Assembly (NCBI RefSeq): GCF_003353065.1
Contig: NZ_CP027806.1
Span: 2,004,501-2,068,500, forward strand
Origin: Cyclonatronum proteinivorum
GTDB lineage: Bacteria > Bacteroidota > Rhodothermia > Balneolales > Cyclonatronaceae
Length of the DNA stretch: 64,000 nt
Reading direction: 5' to 3'
The notes under the pieces were generated by a model that searched no databases, was not told where the DNA came from, and saw nothing but the letters and a program-made list of their open reading frames with translations. Below are positions 16,072-38,398 of the stretch, in pieces. Numbering within the stretch: position 1 is the first letter of the stretch; every line of letters begins with the position of its first letter. Both the position numbers and the translations under genes were made by a program.

Positions 16072-16553
16072 GCCACAGTGCAGAATCAAACAGGGTGCAA
16101 TGGTGAACAAATTAGCCTGATAAAATACTTTAAAATCACAAAAATTCAAATAAAGGACCTGCGGACAAACCAAAACCCGCACACAAAACCCCACAAACCA
16201 AACCCAAAAGGCTACGGCGGCAACAGTAGCGGCAACGGCAGCAGCAGCTGCAACGCCAAACCGCACACCGAACCACAAAGCCCTGCCACCAAACGCACGG
16301 GCATGCCAAGGCTCTTATTTTTTTGGGTAAAACTCAGAGAACATCAAGGGCGCACAGACAGATTGACACCCCCCAAATCGAAGATCAATGCGTTGCTTTT
16401 TTTCCTCAGCAGACGACAGATTTCAGACCGCCGACCGCCGACCGCCGACCGCCGATTGCAGATTGCAGAAAAGACGGGTTTGAATCTGCCGAATTCAGTG
16501 AGCAAGGTTTGTACGGTTTTTTGATAGAAGTTTTGGCCCCGCTTAACCCTCCA
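15990..16553. repeat. intergenic stretch with an F element copy
   Basis: Apart from the pyrE leader, 16080-16310 holds A/C-rich low-complexity sequence with no supportable gene. An F element lies at 16315-16470: the ACTCAGAGAACATCAAGGG and CCCCAAATCGAAGATCAATG blocks are followed by a short iterated GACCGCCGACCGCC tract (six or so copies of CCGCCGA-like units). F elements recur at 21.5-21.7, 26.56-26.8 and 48.7-48.97 kb. Confidence 0.7.
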
Positions 16554-16979
16554 AGGGTTCCTTATGTTTGGCGCTGGGAGATTGAAGTCAACTTTCGAGA
16601 GCAGAAAACCCTGATGGGCTGCGGGCAGGCACAGGTGCGCAACCAGCACTCCGCCGAAGGTGTACCTAAGTTTGTTACAGCGGTGTACAGTCTGTTACTG
16701 CTTGCCGCTGAACACTGCAGCAGGCAGAATGATCCACCGGTCCAAATGCTGCAACGTGCCAAGTGGTACCCCGAGAAAGAAAACAGCAGGTGGACGACAG
16801 GAGACATTTGTAACCGCTTCAGGGCGGAATACTACAGCAAAGCCATAGGGGTGAGTTTTGACGGCTTCATGAACAAAAGGTACCGAAAGCAGAACCACCT
16901 AAAACTGCTAAACCCGGCTTTATCGGCCATGATTAGCATCAGAACTTAGCCAAACTCCAGTAACCCTCCAAGGGTTCCT
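16544..16979. repeat. 19-bp direct repeats bracketing the transposase remnant
   Basis: TAACCCTCCAAGGGTTCCT occurs at 16544-16562 and again at 16961-16979. Each copy is itself nearly palindromic (AACCCTCCAAGGGTT). The transposase frame reads through the left copy. Confidence 0.85.
16554..16949 (+). pseudogene. C-terminal fragment of an IS4-type DDE transposase
   Basis: The frame contains YVWRWEIEVNFREQKTLMG, which fits the IS4-family Y-(2)-R-(3)-E-(6)-K signature exactly and includes the third catalytic acid. It is followed by VRNQHSAEGVPKFVTAVYSL and a basic tail ending ISIRT. The N-terminal two thirds with the two catalytic Asp residues are missing; sequence upstream is repeat-derived. The fragment lies between two direct copies of TAACCCTCCAAGGGTTCCT (16544-16562 and 16961-16979). 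It is a remnant, not an active element. Confidence 0.8.
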
Positions 16980-17021: not shown

Positions 17022-17140
17022 TATTATATGGGATATAAAACTCCCCTGTTGAGAGGGGCATTATCACTGTGTCACCGCATAGTATGTCAGTGTATCATTT
17101 TTAGGCTATAATGTTGTTAATATTTGGGATACAAAACTCC
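17022..17140. repeat. H element copy 1
   Basis: It contains a CTCCCCTGTTGAGAGGGG palindrome, then TGTGTCACCGCATAGTATGT, CAGTGTATCATTTTTAGGC and TAATGTTGTTAATATTTGGG. The same roughly 95-base unit appears twice in tandem at 20.45-20.64 kb. It always leads into the left end of a C element. Confidence 0.8.
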
Positions 17141-17646
17141 CCTCTCGAGAGGGGTGGCCCCGGTAGGAGTTTGTTAGGGTCTGTGGCGCCGGAATTATTT
17201 TTACACTCTTTCAACGCCCAGATGGTGGCGGGACGGGGTGTGGGAATGCTGACCGAAGCCTATTTATTTCAGTGCAGGCTGAGTCGCTATAAAAGGAAGG
17301 AACGAGGCTGGTGCGACTCCGGAAATAATTTACCAGCCGTATCCGCAATGGCTGCGCACGATTCGAGACGCAACTCCTGATGGTATGCCGCCCTTTCAGG
17401 GCTCTATTTGTGTGGGGCCGCAATCCCGGGGTTGTCACCCCGGGCTGTGGTATGCCGCCCTTTCAGGGCTGTGGTTACGTTGGGGTAATTCTTTTTTTGA
17501 GCTCATTACAATTGTGTGATGTCTTTTTTCGTGGCGTACGCCGCCCCAATCCCGGCACTGGGGCACTCACACCCCGCCCGTTCGCAGGCGGACACTTAGG
17601 TCCGCCCCTACAACCCGGGCACCCCTCTCGCAGAGGGGAGTTTTGG
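17132..17646. repeat. C element copy 1 (complete, nested inverted repeats)
   Basis: The outer arms are AAAACTCCCCTCTCGAGAGG at the left and, in reverse complement, the same sequence with one inserted base at the right (17620-17646). The inner arms are GGCGGGACGGGGTGTGGG near 17227 and CACACCCCGCCC near 17570. Between them lie perfect small hairpins: GCCCTTTCAGGGC twice and CCCGGGGTTGTCACCCCGGG (17425-17444). No protein is supportable in it. Confidence 0.85.
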
Positions 17647-17731
17647 TCCCGTGGCGTTGCAGGACTCTTAGCCAAAAAATAAGAAAGAAATTAAGGTATC
17701 GAAGCTATTATTATCACGGGACTTACCAATT

Positions 17732-18180
17732 CCCATCTCGAGAGGGGTGGCCCCGGTAGGAGTTTGTTAGGGTTTGTGGTGCCGGAATTGTTTTTGCACT
17801 CTTTCAGCGCCCCGATGGTGGCGGGACGGGGTGTGGGAATGCTGACCGAAGCCTATTTATTTCAGTGCAGGCTGAGTCGCTATAAAAGGAAGGAACGAGG
17901 CTGGTGCGACTCCGGAAATACATTACCAGCCGTATCCGCAATGGTTGCGCAAGAATCGAAACGCACCCCCGAAGATATGCCGCCCTTTCAGGGCTCCATT
18001 TGTGTGGGGCCGCAATCCCGGGGTTGGCACCCCGGGCTGTGGTATGCCGCCCTTTCGGGGCTGTGGTTACGTTGGGGTAATTCTTTTTTTGAGCTCATTA
18101 CAATTGTGTGATGTCTTTTTTCGTGGCGTACGCCGCCCCAATCCCGGCACTGGGGCGGTCACACCCCGCCCCGTCACCAC
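17732..18180. repeat. C element copy 2 (right end missing)
   Basis: Nearly identical to copy 1 for more than 400 bases at an offset of about 594 bases, with the same hairpins. It stops at the inner right arm (CACACCCCGCCCCGTCACC), where the sequence changes into the upstream region of the lipoprotein gene. Confidence 0.85.
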
Positions 18181-20451: not shown

Positions 20452-20645
20452 GGGGGCATTTTTCAGTGTGTCACAGCACAGTATGTCAGTGTGTCATTTT
20501 TGGTTATGATGTTGTTAATATTTGGGATATGAAACTCCCCTCTCGAGAGGGGATTTTCAGTATGTCACCGCACAGTATGTCAGTGTGTCATTTTTAGGCT
20601 ATAATGCTGTTAATATTTGGGATACAAAACTCCCCTCTCGAGAGG
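20452..20645. repeat. H elements, two tandem copies
   Basis: Two copies of the roughly 94-base unit, with TCAGTGTGTCATTTTT at 20486 and again at 20580, each followed by AATATTTGGGATA and a CTCCCCTCTCGAGAGGGG palindrome. They begin two bases after the lipoprotein stop codon. Confidence 0.8.
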
Positions 20646-20830
20646 GGTGGCCCCGGTAGGAAATTGTTAGGGTTGATGATGCCTGAGCAGTCTCCAATCT
20701 CTTTCAACGCCCCGATGGTGGCGGGACGGGGTGTGGAGATGCTGGTCGGAGGCAACAAATTAATTAACCACCACAGTGGCAAATGGTGGGGCACCCCTAA
20801 GGCTGGAAACAGATCATTTGCCCCAACGAC
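20625..20830. repeat. C element copy 3 (left half only)
   Basis: It contains the left outer arm (CTCCCCTCTCGAGAGGGGTG), the AGGAAATTGTTAGGGTTGATG link and the inner left arm GGTGGCGGGACGGGGTGTGG. It then diverges near 20750 into sequence with a short GAGACGCG iteration (20870-20905). Confidence 0.75.
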
Positions 20831-26555: not shown

Positions 26556-27335
26556 CCATTTTTTTTTGGGGAAAACTCACAGAGCATCAGGGGCCCCGTG
26601 AAAGATTGAAAGCCCCCAAATCGAAGATGAATGCGTTGCTTTTTGGGATGGAGACGGCAGACGGCAGACCGCAGACCGAAGACCGTGGACGGTTACTCCA
26701 AAAGTAAATAAAGGTGTCATCAGCGGGGCATGGCAACACCACAATCAAAGCCCCGAAAAATAGATCTGCCCCGGCAGGCCATCGAAGCCCCATGTGAGAG
26801 ATCCCCTTCGGCTGTCTTGCCCCGATATGGATCAACGTTTCGAAGCCTTCCATAACCAGGTCCTTCGACTCCGCTGCGCTCCGCTCAGGATGACAGCGTC
26901 GCCTTGCGTCAAACGGCGCGGCAAGCCGCACCGGGGGTCTTGGAAAATGCCCCTGTCATCCTGAGCGTAGCCGAAGCGCAGCGGAGGCGGAGTCGAAGGA
27001 TCTGGTGATGGGGTTTGGGAGGCTGGTTCGGACGCTCTGTTAATCCGTGCAGTGTATATGTCCCGGAGCCCCCCTCACGGCGTCATCCCGGAAACGCCTG
27101 CGCAGGAGCTTGATAAATATGACCTTAGCTCAACGACGTTGTCCGGGATCTACCAGCTTCGGCCTGCGACCATGCCCGTTGCAGGCCTGCAAAATCGAAT
27201 GCACACATTTCAGAATTGACATCCCAAACCCGCTATTACATCGCGGCGGGTCCCGCTTGGTAGATTCCTGATAAAGCTGCGTGAAGTTTCGTGCAGATTA
27301 TGTAGCCCCGTACCGCAGCATTTCAGGGATGACGG
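26556..27335. repeat. composite F-A-B repeat, right arm of the inverted pair
   Basis: The order is an F element (26556-26830), A elements in both orientations (26860-26902 and 26953-27003) and B3 (27080-27335). It is the reverse complement of the 20976-21731 block, with scattered mismatches. Both blocks contain the long noncoding stretch around CATATCGGGGCAAGACA and its complement. Confidence 0.85.
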
Positions 27336-27883
27336 CCTCGTGGGTTTGGCGTGCGATATTTTCGTGCTACAAAGGTGCCGCTCCGGTAGAGACGCAAAAC
27401 CTTGTGTCTCAATGATGTTTCGAAATCAAAAACGAAAAACGTGCAATCTCGAACAACAGGGCATGCCAAAGCCGGCATTATAACTGTAATTATTAACACG
27501 ACGCTTATCAATTCCCCTCTTGCAGAGGGGCGTTTTGCATCGGAGCGTTTCAGGGTTTTGTAACCAAAAAAAATGCAAATATGGCCGCTAAAGTAATTAT
27601 TAAAAGTGCACTTATTCATTACCTGTTTGCAGCTTGAGTTGGACGTTTGCTTATCGATCCTGTAGTTCCTGTTCGACCTCCATCCTTCGTCATTTATAAT
27701 TGCAAAAAAACGAGTCATTTCAATTGGCTTGGCTTAACGAACAATGAATGCGCCGGGTCCATTGCAGGTACAAAATCGGCAACCTAAAACGGCATCGTAT
27801 CCGAGTGCAATCCTGCTTATTTTGATAGCCATATCTCTTCTTTTTCAGCATTCTGATTCTGCTGTTATGAAAATCACCAATCC
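27336..27883. other. gene-free stretch before the SdiA-regulated-like gene
   Basis: A solitary right-end fragment of a C element lies at 27511-27575 (CCCCTCTTGCAGAGGGG, then GAGCGTTTCAGGGTTTTGTA). The remaining bases, 27580-27883, are AT-richer and contain no frame with family resemblance. I see no convincing promoter box. Confidence 0.6.
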
Positions 27884-31652: not shown

Positions 31653-33623
31653 ATGAGAACTGTATTTATTGATACATCCAGCGTGCGCCCGGTCGCTTCC
31701 GGCACGGGACGCTACACCCAAAATCTGGCGGAAGGCCTCGCGCAGCGGTACGAGGTCGTTACCTCGCCCGGCAATTGGCACCCTCAAATGCGGCAGATGC
31801 CGGAAGGGCCGCGTGACTGGCACCGCGAGCTGAACTTCCGGCTTGCCGCAAATCAGCCCAACATCCATGCAGATGCCGGTATTTTCCCCAACTATTTCAT
31901 GCCGCCCGGCTGGCCTTATCCGGCGGCGGTCACCATTCACGACCTTTCGTTTCTCACGCATCCGCAGTTTTACAGCCCGCGCATGCGGCATTTTTACCGG
32001 CTCCGCATCCGGCATACGCTCAAACACGCACGCGTCATTCTAAGCGTCAGTGAAGCATCGCGCCGGCAGATTCTGGCGCTCACCGGCATTTCACCTGAGC
32101 GCGTGCTTGTGCATGCGCCGGCCCTGCCCGTTACCTGCTGCAATCCCGTGCCTGTCCACGAAGAGCCGTATCTCCTTTATATCGGCAACCTCGAGCCCAA
32201 GAAAAACATCGAAAACATGCTGCGCGCCTATGCCCTGTTGCGCAAACAGCAAAAGGTGTCGCTTGTGCTCGCGGGACGCTTTCACGGGCAACCTGCCTGG
32301 AACCGGAAAATCCGCGACCTTATCCGCGAAATCCCCGGTGTCAGCTATGCCGGTTTTGTGGATGATACCCGCCTGGCTGACCTCCTCGCCTTTGCGTCGG
32401 GACTCGTGCTTGTTAGTCATATCGAAGGATTTGGTTTGCCTGTGATGGATGCCCTTGCCAATCAGGTGCCCGTGCTCATTTCCCGTGACCCCGCCCTGCA
32501 GGAAACCGCTGCGGGCCATGCCCTCACCACCGATGCGAGCGCTCCGGCGCAGATCGCACGCGGCATGGGCGACCTCCTCGAAATTCCCGCTGCCGAACTT
32601 GCCGGAGCCGCGCGACACATGCGCCGCCGCTTCTCTCCCGAAACACGGGATACCGACATGCTGCGCATCACCCGCAGCCTGCGAAGCCCGCGTCCGCTTT
32701 TTTTGCACGGTGAGCCGGAGCGTAATCGCGAAACCAGCCCGAACGTGGCCCTCCTCAGTGGTATCGCCTATGCTGATGTTTTTGGTTCGGGCATCACCCC
32801 GGCCAAACTGCACCGTTCGCTAAGTGGTGTCCGCCTCAGCAAAACTGCGTTTCAGGAAAAGCTTGATGTGCTCCTCAGCCTACGTCCTGACTTGGTAGTG
32901 AAGGAAAATGGGGTTTTGTTTTTGGGGGAACACCGGGGGCGCACCGAAAGCCCGCGATGGGCGCAAAGCTCCGAGGTCGTCCGACGGCGCCATGCGCGAC
33001 TGCTGGGCGTTCTGATGGCCTCGCCCTGGGTCCGTGGCCTGTACTACAGCGGCGGTACCGCGCACGGCAGCGGACTCGATGCGCAGCCCGATCTCGACCT
33101 CCTCGTTATTGCCGCCCCCGGCCGCGCCTGGCTCGCATGGGCATGGGTGCGGCTCGTCAGCCTCCTCGGCGGCCCCAACAGCCGGATCTGCGCCAACTAC
33201 ATTCTCGCGGAAAACGCGCAGGAAGTCCACTGGCAGCGGGATTATTACACCGCCTTCCAGCTTCTTTTCCTGCGGAAAGTCAGCCTGAAACCCGGCTGCA
33301 CCCACATCCGCCGCCACAACCGCTGGATTACGGATTTCTTCCCCAACAACAGCTATGCCGAAGCACCTGCCACGCCGGAAGTCCCCCGTGGGTTGCTCAC
33401 CCGCCTCAACCTCGCCCTGCAATTCGTGGCCGGCTGGTTCTGGAACCGCCGCGGCCTCCGCAGCGGCGAAGGCGGCCTGCTGTGGGACGCACACCGCATC
33501 AAGCTCCACACCAACGACCACCGCCCAACCGTAAAACAAGCCTTCGCCGAACGCATGCGCAAGTTTGGCGGCCTGCCTACGGGCACCGCGGCAACATCTG
33601 TGCGGGCTGCGAAAATGCGGTGA
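31653..33623 (+). CDS. GT4 glycosyltransferase fused to a nucleotidyltransferase-like domain
   Basis: The 656-residue protein starts with a GT-B family 4 glycosyltransferase (about 1-345): GTGRYTQNLAEGLAQRY, VTIHDLSFLTHP, LYIGNLEPKKNIENMLRAYA and HIEGFGLPVMDALANQVPV. In the last motif Asp stands where the second Glu of the E-x7-E pair usually is. From about 370 a winged-helix-like stretch leads to a minimal nucleotidyltransferase motif near 466-486 (GGTAHGSGLDAQPDLDLLVI: G-S followed by D-x-D), then RAWLAWAWVRL and RICANYILAENAQEVHWQRD. I recall stand-alone proteins with this C-terminal architecture in Bacteroidota, encoded near glycosyltransferases. Acceptor and nucleotide are unknown. Confidence 0.8.
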   Translation: MRTVFIDTSSVRPVASGTGRYTQNLAEGLAQRYEVVTSPGNWHPQMRQMPEGPRDWHRELNFRLAANQPNIHADAGIFPNYFMPPGWPYPAAVTIHDLSFLTHPQFYSPRMRHFYRLRIRHTLKHARVILSVSEASRRQILALTGISPERVLVHAPALPVTCCNPVPVHEEPYLLYIGNLEPKKNIENMLRAYALLRKQQKVSLVLAGRFHGQPAWNRKIRDLIREIPGVSYAGFVDDTRLADLLAFASGLVLVSHIEGFGLPVMDALANQVPVLISRDPALQETAAGHALTTDASAPAQIARGMGDLLEIPAAELAGAARHMRRRFSPETRDTDMLRITRSLRSPRPLFLHGEPERNRETSPNVALLSGIAYADVFGSGITPAKLHRSLSGVRLSKTAFQEKLDVLLSLRPDLVVKENGVLFLGEHRGRTESPRWAQSSEVVRRRHARLLGVLMASPWVRGLYYSGGTAHGSGLDAQPDLDLLVIAAPGRAWLAWAWVRLVSLLGGPNSRICANYILAENAQEVHWQRDYYTAFQLLFLRKVSLKPGCTHIRRHNRWITDFFPNNSYAEAPATPEVPRGLLTRLNLALQFVAGWFWNRRGLRSGEGGLLWDAHRIKLHTNDHRPTVKQAFAERMRKFGGLPTGTAATSVRAAKMR

Positions 33624-33780
33624 GGGAAATGCCATTAAAGCATTGAAAACATTATTATCACCACGCTTAACCAACTTCCCTCTCGCAGATGGGAATTATG
33701 GCTTCGTGGCATTTCAGGGCTACCGAGCCAAACAGCAATGTTAATGCAATCTCGAAGGTATTAATAAAACAGCACTTTTC

Positions 33781-34334
33781 AATTCTCCTCTCGAGATGGG
33801 TGGCCCCAATGATATGTTGTTAGGGCTGATGGTGTTGTTTTTGCCTTTGAACGCTTTCAGCGCCCGGATGGTGGCGGGACGGGGTGTGGGAAAGCCGGTC
33901 GAAGGCTACCCTTTTCAGTGCAACCCGATAAATTATTAAAGGAAGAAAAGGGAAGGGAAGCGACTTTGGTGATCGAATCAATGACCGCTTACTGTCAGCA
34001 TGATTAGAAATATCGTAAACGAAAAAAACTTTGGATGATATGCCGCCCCTTCAGGGCTCCATTATTGATGGGTCGTGATCCCGGGGTTGTCACCCCGGGC
34101 TATGGTATGTCGCCCTTTCAGGGCTGGAGCGGCGGGTTGTTGGAATTATTTATTACTCTCGTTACAAGTGTCCGGTATTATTTTCGTGGCGTAAGGTGCT
34201 CGATCTCCGGCATCCGGGCGTTCACACCCCGCCCCTTCAAAATCGGAGCCTTTTTAACATTTGATGCTTTTTTCGGGCTCTTGCCGCTGATTTTGTTTTT
34301 CCAGGGGGCACCCCTCTCGCAGAGGGGAGTTTGG
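33781..34334. repeat. C element copy 4
   Basis: It starts at CTCCTCTCGAGATGGGTGGC and ends at CACCCCTCTCGCAGAGGGGA. Between them are GGCGGGACGGGGTGTGGG, GCCCCTTCAGGGCTCC, CCCGGGGTTGTCACCCCGGG and TTCACACCCCGCCCC. It resembles copy 5 more than copies 1 and 2. Confidence 0.85.
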
Positions 34335-34415
34335 CTCCGTGGCGTTTCAGGATTACCATACCAAAACAACAATGTAGATACGAGCTCTAAAATATTAATA
34401 AGACGGCACTTATTA

Positions 34416-34959
34416 ATTCCCCTCTTGAGAGGGGTGGCCCCAATGAGATGCTGTAAGGGTTGATGATGTTATTGTTGGATTTAAACTCTTTCAACGCCCG
34501 GATGGTGGCGGGACGGGGTGTGGGAAAGCCGGTCGAAGGCTACCCTTTTCAGTGCAACCCGATAAACTATGAAAGGAAGAAACGGGGCGGGTGGCGACTT
34601 TGATGATCGAATCAATGACCGCTAAATGTCAGCATGATTAGAAAATCGCCAGTGAAAAAAACTTTGGATGATATGCCGCCCCTTCAGGGCTCCATTATTG
34701 ACGGGTCGTGATCCCGGGGTTGTCACCCCGGGCTGTGGTATGTCGCCCTTTCAGGGCTGGGGCGGGTTGTTGTATATGATTTTTTCTGATCCGTACTTTG
34801 TGATGCTTCCCTTGGCGTAAGGAGGAGATATTTGACTTCCGGGCGTTCACACCCCGCCCCGTCAAAATCGGAGCCGTTTTAACATTTGTGACTTTTTCCG
34901 GTTCCATGCCGCTGGTCAGGACTTTCCCGGGGGCACCCCTCTCGCAGAGGGGAGTTTGG
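34416..34959. repeat. C element copy 5
   Basis: Tandem neighbour of copy 4 at a period of about 620-635 bases, in the same orientation and with the same order of hairpins. The link between the units carries AATAAGACGGCACTTATTAA, repeated again before copy 6 at about 35020. Confidence 0.85.
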
Positions 34960-35035
34960 CTCCGTGGCATTTCAGGATTACCATGCCAAAACAGCAATGC
35001 AGATACGAGATCGAAGGTATTAATAAGACGGCACT

Positions 35036-35195
35036 TATTAATTCCCCTCTTGAGAGGGGTGGCCCCAATGAGATGCTGTAAGGGTTGATGATATTATGAT
35101 TGCTTTTAAACTCTTTCAACGCCCGGATGGTGGCGGGACGGGGTGTGGAAATGCCTGTCGAAGGCAAGAAGCGAATTACCACCACGCGGTAATTA
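35036..35195. repeat. C element copy 6 (left half)
   Basis: CCCCTCTTGAGAGGGGTGGC and GGCGGGACGGGGTGTGGAAA are present. The central hairpins and right end are absent. Confidence 0.75.
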
Positions 35196-35238: not shown

Positions 35239-35410
35239 GCCGTCATACCGGAAACGCCCACTCAGATGCGGGGCGGTGGGTGTTGCAGAACCGGCACCAC
35301 AGCCGTACTATTTCATCACGGCAATTCCCGCTTGGCAGATCCCGTATAATGCTGCGTGAAGTTTCGTGCAGATGATAGGGCCCCGTGCTGCAGCATTTAC
35401 GGGATGACGG
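35239..35410. repeat. B element copy 4 (internally deleted)
   Basis: Outer arms are CGTCATACCGGAAACGCCC and GCATTTACGGGATGACGG. Only one inner arm remains (TTGGCAGATCCCGTATAATG), so the left inner arm has been lost and the unit is about 85 bases short. Confidence 0.8.
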
Positions 35411-35444
35411 GCTCGGGGGTGAGACAGGACTGAACTGAACTGAA

Positions 35445-35552: not shown

Positions 35553-36635
35553 CTACTTCGGCGTTCGCCAGATGAGGAAGAAGCTGATCAGCAGGAACAG
35601 CAGGTGCGGGGCGGCGGCGGCCCAGAGGGGGTCGAGCTGACCGCTTGCACCGAAGGGTTCGATGATTTTCATGATAATCAGATAGAAGAAAATCACGATG
35701 AGACCGGTGCCGAGGAGTACGCCGCGTCCGCCTTTGCGCCGGTTGGAGGTCGAAATGCCGAGTCCGACGAGCGTGATCACAATAGTCCCGAAGGGATAAA
35801 ACAGCTTTCCGAAAAACTGCACTTTGGGAAGGGCAACCCCGCCGACTCCGCTGCGCTCCAGCGAGCGGATGTAGTCGATGATTTCCGGGTAGGTAAGGCG
35901 GTAGATGTCGTTTGTGGACCGCGCCATATCCTGCGGCAGCACGGTCAGGGTTGTGTCTGCCTGATGGCTGGACGTACGCACAATGCCTTCATCCGTAAAC
36001 AAACGCCGCTCGAGCCGGATCAGCCGCCACTCTTCGGTTTCGGGTTGCCATTCCATGCGTGAGGCGTCCACAATTTCGGCAACCCGGTCATTCTCGAACC
36101 TGAAAATCCGGACGTGATAGCCCATGGCAGAGCGGCTGTCGAAGTAGTTCACCGTGAGCATGGTGTGTTCGTTTTCCTGCCGGAACAGACGGGAGCGATC
36201 AATGCGGTCGGAGCCCCTTGCCAGGTACTGCCGCTCAAACTCGAAGCGCTCGTCGTTTGCGCCGGGAATCACAAAGCCGTCGAGATAGCTGAGTACGCCC
36301 GTCACCATGGTCGCAAAGAGCAGAAAAGGCACCATGAAGCGGTAAAAACTCACGCCTGCGCCTTTGATGGCCGTCAGTTCGAGCCGCTCACTCATCTGCC
36401 CTGCGACCAGCAGTACGGCCACGAAAACGGCGACCGGGGAAACCAGCCGGATCATCTCCGGTATGTAATTGAGGTAGTAGCGGGACCAGATTTCGCTGAG
36501 CTCGGCGCCGCGGTCGGAGAAGGTGTCGCTGTTTTCCGAAAAGTCAATAACGATAAAAATGAACACGAGCACGCCCAGTACCATGAGCGTTGCAAGCAGC
36601 AGCCGCATAAAAATGAATCGGTCAATGCGGGTCAT
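35553..36635 (-). CDS. lptG: LptF/LptG-family LPS export permease (second gene of pair)
   Basis: Inner-membrane permease of the LptB2FG lipopolysaccharide extractor. Starting at MTRIDRFIFMRLLLATLMVL (ATG 36635) it has 360 residues, the standard size. TM helices lie near 10-30, 55-80 and 100-125. A periplasmic jellyroll occupies about 130-265 and three C-terminal helices follow. ATG 36635 overlaps the stop of the upstream family member by four bases (ATGA), so the pair is translationally coupled. The F versus G assignment is by position only. An ATG further upstream (36773) lies inside the neighbour and is not needed. Confidence 0.85.
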   Translation of the reverse strand: MTRIDRFIFMRLLLATLMVLGVLVFIFIVIDFSENSDTFSDRGAELSEIWSRYYLNYIPEMIRLVSPVAVFVAVLLVAGQMSERLELTAIKGAGVSFYRFMVPFLLFATMVTGVLSYLDGFVIPGANDERFEFERQYLARGSDRIDRSRLFRQENEHTMLTVNYFDSRSAMGYHVRIFRFENDRVAEIVDASRMEWQPETEEWRLIRLERRLFTDEGIVRTSSHQADTTLTVLPQDMARSTNDIYRLTYPEIIDYIRSLERSGVGGVALPKVQFFGKLFYPFGTIVITLVGLGISTSNRRKGGRGVLLGTGLIVIFFYLIIMKIIEPFGASGQLDPLWAAAAPHLLFLLISFFLIWRTPK

Positions 36636-38398
36636 GGGGCAGGCTCCTGTTTGCGCGGCTGATCCCCGGGCGCAGGGGTGTCCGAATCTGATCCGGTGTC
36701 TGTATTTGTGACTGACGCAATGACGGCTGTTTCCGGCTGTGGCGCCGCTGACCCGAGCTCTGTACCCTTCCAAAGATCTGAAAACCTGAACTCATACATC
36801 ACCTTGGCCATGAGGTAGATGCCGAGTGCGAGCAGCGTGATGTTGCCAAACCACATCCCCATAAAAGGTGAAATGACCAGCCGGTCGGCCAGCTTTTCCC
36901 CCTGTATAATGGTGATCCAGTAATAGGTGAACACCACTGTTGCGATGAGCGCATTGAACCCCAGGTTGCCTTTCCGGGTGAGGATGCCGAGCGGCGCGCC
37001 CACAAGCACAAAAATGATACAGCCTACGGGAATCGCTACTTTTTTATGGACTTCCACCATGTATTGGGCAATACGCTCGGTGCGCCAGGCCCTGTTGTTG
37101 GCATGAGAACTCAGGCGCGATGCCCCGCCCCGCAGGCTTGCCACGACTGCACTTGCCGCGTCTTTCTGCAGCTCAAGGGTCTGAAGCTGATTTAATATGA
37201 CAAAGGCCGTTTCTTCAATATTGCTTCGCGCAAGGGTGTCTGCGGGCAGTTCGCCGGAACCGGAATTTTGGGCGAGGCTGTCGGCTGCGTCTGCTGTTGC
37301 GAATTCCGCTTCCGCTTCAACATCTGCGTATCGGGCAAAAGTGAAGATGGTTTCCGTGTTTGAGCCGCTGACATCCTGAACCGGTGCCGCGCCCGTTTCC
37401 TTTGCGGATGACGGGTAATCTTCATCCCGCTCATTTCGGAGACCGCTTTCTTGGAACGGATTCCAGGCGTCGGGGCGGATGTGCTCGCGGTGCTTCCGCA
37501 TGAGCCGGGTCGGGCTCTGATCGTTGCGGTACAGCTCGAAGTCGTTTCGGGTGTTGGTGTGCAGGGAGTCGATAATTCCGAGCATCATTTGGGAGCTCAT
37601 GGTGCGGTCATCACGCCGGCGGGAATTGGGATCGCTTCGGCTGAAGGTGAGGTCGCCCATGTCGAAGTTGACGCGGTAGGTGCTGAAAAAGGTGCGCTCG
37701 TGCCGCCGCTTGCCGTCTGCACCGGAGGAAAGGTCCCGGCTGATGGAGCCGTCGAACAGGAAAAGGCTGAGAAAGTCGGTATCGGGCACGGATTTCAGAA
37801 AACCGGAATGTGCACGAATGACTGCTGCGTCAACCTGATCGTTGCCGTTGCGGAACAGTATGACGTCAAATAAACTGTCTGTACCGGCAGGGATGCGTCG
37901 TACCAGAAAGTTGTAGCCGTCAATGCCGTCATAAAACACGTTTTCCTGCAGGTCAAATCCGGGCCGCTGTGTACGGATATCAAGGAAAAGCGAGCGGGCT
38001 TTGAAGTTAGCGTCCGGCAGGATTTCGTTGGAGAAATACACCAGAAAAACGGCTAAGAAAGTCCCTGCCATCAAAATGGGATAGATGATGCTGAGCGGAT
38101 TGATGCCCGCTGCCCGTGCCGCCGTGAACTCGTTGAGCTCAGAAAATTTCCCGAAAGCCATCAGGCAGGCAACGAGCACCGACATGGGCATGGCAAGCAC
38201 AACCATGAAGGCGAGGTTGGTGGCAATCAGCTCAAGGATGATTGAAATCGGGAGTCCGCGTCCTATCAGCCGGTCGATGTGGAGCACAAGGAACTGCATG
38301 AGCAGCAGGAACATGACGATAAGGAAGCAAAACAAAAAAGGCCCGATATGCCTTTTAAGGATTTCTCTCTGTAGTTTTCTGATTCCGTTAGCTGACAT
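36632..38398 (-). CDS. lptF: LptF/LptG-family LPS export permease (first gene of pair)
   Basis: The 588-residue permease begins LQREILKRHIGPFLFCFLIV, the conserved lateral-gate helix, followed by the family's SELNEFTAARAAGINPLSII and VYFSNEILPDANFKARSL. The periplasmic region (about 140-460) is much longer than in E. coli LptF. It contains a low-complexity acidic/Ala-rich insert (about 330-400) before the C-terminal helices at about 465-560, and the cytoplasmic tail is Thr/Ser/Pro-rich. With lptE at 11 kb this supplies much of the Lpt system; lptB, lptC and lptD are not in the window. Confidence 0.88.
   Translation of the reverse strand: MSANGIRKLQREILKRHIGPFLFCFLIVMFLLLMQFLVLHIDRLIGRGLPISIILELIATNLAFMVVLAMPMSVLVACLMAFGKFSELNEFTAARAAGINPLSIIYPILMAGTFLAVFLVYFSNEILPDANFKARSLFLDIRTQRPGFDLQENVFYDGIDGYNFLVRRIPAGTDSLFDVILFRNGNDQVDAAVIRAHSGFLKSVPDTDFLSLFLFDGSISRDLSSGADGKRRHERTFFSTYRVNFDMGDLTFSRSDPNSRRRDDRTMSSQMMLGIIDSLHTNTRNDFELYRNDQSPTRLMRKHREHIRPDAWNPFQESGLRNERDEDYPSSAKETGAAPVQDVSGSNTETIFTFARYADVEAEAEFATADAADSLAQNSGSGELPADTLARSNIEETAFVILNQLQTLELQKDAASAVVASLRGGASRLSSHANNRAWRTERIAQYMVEVHKKVAIPVGCIIFVLVGAPLGILTRKGNLGFNALIATVVFTYYWITIIQGEKLADRLVISPFMGMWFGNITLLALGIYLMAKVMYEFRFSDLWKGTELGSAAPQPETAVIASVTNTDTGSDSDTPAPGDQPRKQEPAP

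Follow-up and report, generated by a model that had tools for sequence, protein, structure and literature searches.

The stretch of the Cyclonatronum proteinivorum genome analysed here, referred to as the window, is 64,000 nt long and covers positions 2004501-2068500 of a chromosome assembled as one contig of 4,294,247 bases. The initial annotation had described at least six full or partial copies of a repeat, the C unit, at 17.1, 17.7, 20.6, 33.8, 34.4, and 35.0 kb, and all six exist, with the inner left arm GGCGGGACGGGGTGTG exact in each of them (17227, 17820, 20720, 33873, 34507, and 35132). The features, in window coordinates, are as follows.

17043-17138, + strand: palindrome (17043-17058) and 80-nt spacer of the second type, before unit 1
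17137-17640, + strand: C unit 1, complete, with an Acido-Lenti-1 core between paired inner and outer arms
17139-17154, no strand: outer left palindrome P (CCCCTCTCGAGAGGGG)
17227-17242, + strand: inner left arm GGCGGGACGGGGTGTG
17390-17469, + strand: REP-like core nested in unit 1, in which CCCGGGGTTGTCACCCCGGG lies between two direct GCCCTTTCAGGGC hairpins; scored as Rfam Acido-Lenti-1 at 17425-17470
17568-17579, + strand: inner right arm CACACCCCGCCC
17622-17638, no strand: outer right palindrome CCCCTCTCGCAGAGGGG, then AGTTTT (terminator-like)
17639-17731, + strand: 93-nt spacer, unit 1 to unit 2
17732-18171, + strand: C unit 2, with outer left arm, inner left arm, Acido-Lenti-1 (18017-18062), and inner right arm, without right outer arm
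20537-20631, + strand: palindrome (20537-20552) and 79-nt spacer of the second type, before unit 3
20632-20735, + strand: C unit 3, a left end (outer and inner arm)
27514-27530, + strand: solitary right-type outer palindrome and spacer
33677-33693, + strand: first palindrome of the 33.7-35.1 kb array, right-type outer, with 2 mismatches
33785-34327, + strand: C unit 4, complete; Acido-Lenti-1 at 34080-34125
34328-34418, + strand: 91-nt spacer, unit 4 to unit 5; 33694-33784 and 34953-35043 hold spacers of this type
34419-34952, + strand: C unit 5, complete; Acido-Lenti-1 at 34713-34758
35044-35147, + strand: C unit 6, a left end (outer and inner arm)

The copies at 17.1, 33.8, and 34.4 kb are complete, the one at 17.7 kb lacks only the right outer arm, and those at 20.6 and 35.0 kb are left ends only. 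Left outer palindromes are located at 17139-17154, 17732-17747, 20632-20647, 33785-33800, 34419-34434, and 35044-35059, right outer palindromes at 17622-17638, 34311-34327, and 34936-34952, and the inner right arm CACACCCCGCCC at 17568, 18160, 34223, and 34848. The hairpins reported inside the unit were recovered in the four copies that have an interior, with GCCC(C/T)TTC(A/G)GGGC occurring twice per copy and CCCGGGGTTG(T/G)CACCCCGGG also present, and the four cores score as Acido-Lenti-1 with 49.4-54.7 bits against a gathering threshold of 37. At 27.5 and 33.7 kb, where right-end fragments had been proposed, a right-type outer palindrome with its spacer is present, and the inner right arm is absent at up to one mismatch.

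Outer and inner arms are both inverted, and the unit combines terminal inverted repeats with an apparent lack of coding capacity, as in the definition of a MITE. No conserved gene was seen in the C unit, and the open reading frames (ORFs) within it were taken as spurious because the interior lengths, which were the basis of this decision, vary without regard to frame.

Several further repeats are found in the window. Two palindromes beyond those of the initial annotation (17043-17058 and 20537-20552) are accompanied by another spacer type (17061-17137 and 20460-20631) with a repeated CAGTGTGTCA, which is also present twice, 945 nt apart, in contig C64 (L176) of the congener G022. A long inverted repeat (21132-21727/26561-27179) surrounds the CinA and porin genes, with arms of 277, 110, 84, and 48 nt that are 83-92% complementary, and pieces of it match several places in G022. 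A separate 138-nt direct repeat (27208-27345 and 35283-35420) is 78% identical. Upstream of unit 1, a 208-aa ORF (16323-16949) without Pfam match looks like the end of a transposase; its 3' end recurs beside the array in locus L048.

Copy number and array structure in the genome

BLASTN with the 509-nt unit (17132-17640 of the window) as query gave 124 matches in the own genome (E <= 0.001). The exact outer palindrome CCCCTCTYGAGAGGGG occurs 75 times genome-wide on the forward strand, compared to zero occurrences of the reversed pattern used as control, and with up to two mismatches it was found eight times in the window vs. a mean of 0.0 in 30 simulated sequences of the same nearest-neighbour make-up. 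At the DNA level, the C unit is almost confined to this genome: three of the 40 relatives searched, own genome included, have matches (own genome, n = 65; G022, n = 7; G119, n = 1). Among the matches listed, which extend to 2.87 Mb of the 4.29-Mb contig, no exact outer palindrome lies before 1.381 Mb (first at 1381172), whereas the Acido-Lenti-1 core is present from 0.19 Mb onward.

The organisation of the repeats was surveyed in 15 stretches around copies (the window and 14 other loci), with palindromes accepted at up to three mismatches. These stretches contain 106 palindromes and 81 palindrome-to-palindrome intervals shorter than 900 nt, which by length fall into 44 spacers (43 of 79-95 nt and one of 112 nt) and 37 units (>130 nt); the recurring spacers are of two kinds, and unit orientation within an array is mostly uniform. 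Inner arms are found in 36 of the 37 units, confirming that the nested order recurs across the own genome, with a variable interior. The Acido-Lenti-1 stem (up to four mismatches) is present in 20 of these 36 units (395-584 nt), and the remaining 16 (235-690 nt), without a full core, lie in the same arrays as the core-bearing ones; four of the 16 keep a single REP-type hairpin, and 12 have none at the mismatch level used. The core is thus a repeat with a dispersal of its own that sits within a shell, and the shell is also found coreless, in agreement with the earlier description of the unit as composite and non-autonomous. An alignment of 34 units, in which some rows had the wrong orientation, gave no exact boundary for the insertion of the core. 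In a sister subfamily, four units form a tandem array with a 366-nt period (own genome 1415103-1416469; L202 11104-12470).

The periodic arrays suggest that local tandem duplication and recombination via the repeated palindromes and spacers may have generated them. Five congeners yielded no empty site, exact to the nucleotide, for the 33.7-35.1 kb array. In the congener stretches fetched, the right-hand flanking gene (35553-36773) was aligned in G022, G104, and G149 and the left-hand gene (31653-33623) in G148 and G119, and none of the five stretches contains a P-type palindrome (up to one mismatch). As the two flanking genes are not adjacent in any of these stretches, the comparison, which was made between species of the genus, gives the absence of P only. 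No target duplication was found for any C unit.

Of 23 clusters listed, four were dropped for ORFs shorter than 150 aa and 19 could be scored; in 15 of the 19, by hand count, transcription of the gene preceding the left end runs towards the unit (binomial test, two-sided, about 0.02). In addition, P followed by AGTTTT is terminator-like, with 10 terminator-like sites in the stretch vs. 2.5 expected. Hairpins 3' of co-directional genes may also serve as terminators or mRNA 3' ends.

The Acido-Lenti-1 core and Y1 transposases

The core corresponds to Rfam family RF01687 (Acido-Lenti-1), for which we found at least 57 places in the own genome, 49 of them above the cut-off; this count is a lower bound, with 150 of 1058 candidates scored. 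Outside the arrays, the core forms seven inverted pairs (193, 325, 362, 381, 383, 832, and 3534 kb), 177-185 nt apart start to start, three of which have one member below the cut-off. One of the five Y1 transposase genes of the own genome (PF01797, 2323755-2324090) has Acido-Lenti-1 copies on both sides, and no flanking copy was seen at the other four. Another of the own Y1 genes (L032, 1604777-1608121) has three ACCCTTTCAGGGT hairpins alongside, perhaps a REP type of its own.

RF01687 was found in 28 of the 148 genomes drawn from the phylum, own genome included (E <= 0.001), with 13 above the cut-off. Y1 genes were searched in 21 of the other 27 positive genomes, leaving out six with single weak matches, and were present in 20 of the 21. 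Six of the 21 have an Acido-Lenti-1 match no more than 400 nt from a Y1 gene (G053, 138 and 219 nt; G099, 95 nt; G112, 117 and 102 nt; G144, 138 nt; G016, 112 nt; G121, 390 nt). Only in G053 and G099 does the neighbouring cluster include matches above 37 bits, the adjoining matches in G112, G144, G016, and G121 being sub-threshold (25.9-34.6 bits). By a rough hand estimate, which ignores clustering, adjacency by chance summed over these genomes would amount to about 0.15.

Given this adjacency, the supposed RNA behaves as the REP of a RAYT (Y1) transposase group, whose members would cleave at it. The initial annotation had suggested mobilisation of the whole unit in trans by a RAYT transposase, and for the core, which flanks a Y1 gene here and lies near one in six of the 21 other genomes, the idea holds up; for the arms, outer as well as inner, it finds no support. 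None of the five own Y1 genes has the outer palindrome P at a distance of 1.5 kb or less, and the inner arm is represented only by a 12-nt match with two mismatches (L031 and L034).

Compared to known REP/REPIN systems with their RAYTs, the core is similar in its short palindromes, its genome-wide inverted doublets, and its position on both sides of a Y1 gene. It differs in that no GTAG or CGTC tag was seen by eye beside the core stem of unit 1, where GCCCTTTCAGGGC is preceded by GGTATGCC and followed by TCTATTTG or TGTGGTTA, and in that it is filed in Rfam as an sRNA; the C arms, moreover, are not RAYT-associated. Acido-Lenti-1 was published as a probable RNA (PMC2864571), and a regulatory-RNA reading has been suggested (PMC13298647). 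Our literature search found no published statement of Acido-Lenti-1 as a RAYT REP. This Rfam sRNA family seems to be a DNA repeat associated with a transposase, a point of relevance to regulatory-RNA annotations such as that of PMC13298647.

P-type palindromes around DUF559 genes

At both ends of the shell, which are inverted relative to each other, P (CCCCTCTYGAGAGGGG) and GGGGTGTG are separated by a variable stretch. The congener G022 contains a stand-alone coreless unit of 252 nt (AATCCCCTCTTGAGAGGGGTGCCCC...GGGGCGGGGTGTG...CACACCCCGCCC...GGGGCACCCCTCTCGAGAGGGGAATT) and a second unit without the right outer arm, which lies between two genes; the orthologous gene pair in the own genome encloses an intergenic stretch lacking P-type palindromes. 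As the remainder of this stretch has diverged from G022, it represents an absence and falls short of an exact empty site. When named genomes were scanned for TTCCCCTCTYGAGAGGGGTG, at least 116 stretches were obtained, and the matches listed (80 of the at least 116) include Mucilaginibacter, Ignavibacteria, Nitrospinota, Nitrospirae, Desulfobacterales, Zixibacteria, Pelosinus, Planctomycetota, Cloacimonadota, and others. In the at least 116 stretches, GGGTGTG follows P at a distance of no more than 75 nt at 123 of 136 sites. In the 80 stretches, an inverted P partner lies within 2.5 kb at 31 of 93 sites (at 95-129 nt in 20 of the 31), and a short hairpin of varying sequence is often seen by eye between P and GGGGTGTG. 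At about position 5780 of L243, P, hairpin, and GGGGTGTGT are apparently read in-frame inside an endonuclease III-like gene (by eye).

Five of the at least 116 P stretches contain a DUF559 gene, within 130 nt of P in three of them (L242, 58 nt; L265, 84 nt; L298, 129 nt) and farther away in the other two (913 and 1906 nt). In L242, which comes from a Bacteroidetes MAG, DUF559 is the sole ORF longer than 77 aa of a 511-bp element whose ends (P, hairpin, and GGGGTGTG) match through the second hairpin.

DUF559 (PF04480) was picked for a flank test on a guess that it has such flanks, not by a blind count over gene families. In a first general test of flank similarity, 11 of 25 DUF559 loci scored above the 95% level of mismatched flanks; in a second comparison this was the case for 12 of 21 DUF559 and 14 of 30 Y1 loci, the best inverted repeats at Y1 flanks, among those listed, being of other sequence types than P. 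In the plasmid set, nine of 14 loci were at or below 0.011 in the general test, and L323, L329, and L332 had a higher score in direct than in inverted orientation. As Y1 genes pass the general test too, it was replaced by a specific one, which required on both sides, within 300 nt, a P-type palindrome with a pyrimidine-rich, C-rich 5' arm, a stem of 7, one mismatch, and a loop of at most 9. Such palindromes bracket 28 of the 39 DUF559 genes: 19 of 25 loci of the order (from 30 fetched, after removal of L099 and L110 for insufficient length and of L123-L125 for weak or partial matches) and nine of 14 plasmid loci (of 39 records) from Cyanobacteria, Alphaproteobacteria, and Deinococcus. The corresponding numbers are 2/30 for Y1 genes (of 35 loci, the rest being too short), 0/164 for pseudo-gene windows, and 3/164 for other genes, two of these three being DUF559 neighbours. 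Genes next to DUF559 have a palindrome on one or more flanks in 19 of 24 cases, as expected with a shared flank, which limits the independence of this control; some control loci also overlap one another. On plasmids, for example, DUF559 separates sufB from sufC or paaD from paaZ, or lies within a large reading frame. As partners of the unit, S23 four-helix-bundle genes (PF05635) were rejected, the two own copies (197 and 897 kb) lying away from the arrays.

The single DUF559 gene of the own genome (L109, 2682841-2683143) lies in-frame within the type I restriction gene hsdR (Pfam order HSDR_N, DUF559, SWI2/SNF2). Its left end reads AATTCCCCTCCTCCGGAGGGGTGGC...CGGGGTGG, also given as AATTCCCCTCCTCCGGAGGGGTGGC...GTCGGGGTGGTC, and its right end CCACCCCG...GGGGAGGGGAAT, also given as GACCACCCCGTCC...GGGGAGGGGAAT. 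The hsdR genes of G022 (84% protein identity in the region) and G155 (73%) are uninterrupted, without DUF559 and without P at the matching place; thus, the ends came with the DUF559 gene at this site. The insertion is given without an exact junction because the linker there is variable. Similarly, DUF559 is found in-frame in an Eco57I-type gene in L117; in L108, by eye a relative of the L117 protein, DUF559 lies elsewhere, with a short DUF559-less insert near the L117 site.

Origin of the C unit

We consider it probable that the C element is a two-layer non-autonomous repeat, consisting of a MITE-like shell of a DUF559-associated class and a nested RAYT REP. Since the same end plan (a P-type palindrome, then a variable stretch and a G-rich GGGGTG, repeated in inverted orientation at the other end) brackets DUF559 genes and is fitted by the C unit, the shell is read as a nuclease-less form of this class, from which it would descend, and it may move when a DUF559 nuclease acts in trans on its ends. 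A REP/REPIN-type repeat, Acido-Lenti-1, of a RAYT transposase would have come to sit inside many shells, and intergenic arrays, most of them 3' of a gene in the same orientation, could have arisen as duplication and recombination multiplied the units. Several observations run counter to this reading: the tandem arrays are not as expected from cut-and-paste transposition alone, the C shell resembles the DUF559 ends in plan and over about 20 nt and not in full homology, the C unit as DNA is almost confined to this genome, neither a target duplication nor a nucleotide-exact empty site was found for it, and most P sites have no nuclease gene nearby. The own DUF559 ends share the shell plan and differ in subtype, and with only this one DUF559 gene, no present-day mobiliser of the C shell is therefore identified. 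A nuclease gene that is often bracketed by P-type palindromes is a testable partner candidate.

More tentatively, it is possible, if short of probable, that a mobile class spread across many phyla has DUF559, a Vsr-like PD-(D/E)XK protein, as its sole gene and P, a hairpin, and GGGGTG-type runs as its ends, and enters operons and, in-frame, genes such as those for restriction-modification; the very common P...GGGGTGTG repeats including the C elements would be its nuclease-less offspring, and Acido-Lenti-1 a RAYT REP parasitising them and no RNA family. No description of a mobile-element family with a DUF559 gene between palindromic ends was found in our literature search. A Caulobacter DUF559 protein is described as a Vsr-like nuclease behind an SOS response, not transposition (PMC12907096), and in Legionella, DUF559 occurs in a repeated, recombining segment together with a transposase (PMC12308824). 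The candidate partner gene belongs to this Vsr-like/DUF559 nuclease family by Pfam; the available parts of both papers do not treat DUF559 as the only gene of a palindrome-ended element.

The P palindromes could instead be old host terminators or structural repeats beside or into which DUF559 genes insert, leaving the shell without DUF559 descent. The terminator-like P and AGTTTT sites, the position of the arrays 3' of a co-directional gene, and the 111 of at least 116 P stretches without DUF559 would all be expected in that case; we regard it as unlikely in view of the hsdR site, where the uninterrupted congener genes lack P and the own copy has DUF559 with both ends, and of the 511-bp L242 element, whose matching ends include the second hairpin. 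We give a little less credit still to the whole unit, shell and core, being a large element of the REPIN/BIME type moved by RAYT transposases. The RAYT association of the core speaks for it, as do the palindromic units in mosaic arrays with conserved spacers and the reported RAYT-like genes with long TIRs in place of flanking REPs (PMC3733652); against these stand the arms, with no outer palindrome and only the short inner-arm match near the own Y1 genes, P-type palindromes on both flanks of just two of 30 Y1 genes, and, among the best inverted repeats listed for Y1 flanks, sequence types other than P.

Least probable of all, and in our view improbable, is that the unit is primarily a structured RNA, kept for its function as a 3' UTR or small-RNA element. 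The predicted fold of unit 1 (-231 vs. -192, sd 15, in simulated sequences), the 15/19 orientation bias, and the published RNA status of Acido-Lenti-1 are compatible with such a role. By contrast, unit 4 folds at -206 vs. -187 (sd 12), so that the fold z of about -2.5 and -1.6 for the two units does not bear out the initial annotation, which had named a structured RNA as the alternative to a mobile unit. Interior content and length differ among the copies, pairing in inverted doublets and a position on either side of a transposase gene are traits of mobile DNA, and five congeners have no P-type palindrome beside one flanking gene of the 33.7-35.1 kb array.

Among other known repeats, BIMEs consist of palindromes alternating with conserved linkers in intergenic arrays. 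The C palindromes likewise alternate with conserved spacers in intergenic arrays, although C units measure 235-690 nt and have two arm pairs, in contrast to the 20-40 nt of BIME REPs. The inverted ends, the many intergenic copies, and the lack of any conserved gene seen are shared with MITEs; the C ends, however, are themselves palindromes, the units form tandem arrays with near-constant spacers, and neither a transposase with C ends nor a target duplication was found. CGTC REPs are reported to have stems of 8-9 bp and a CGTC tag, and palindromic repeats are also known within genes, as are Rickettsia palindromic elements, which lie in-frame (PMC3733652, PMC10969869); for the CGTC repeats, PMC3733652 reports that no dedicated transposase was found. 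By description, the C shell is similar to these two groups in that palindromic repeats occur inside genes as well.
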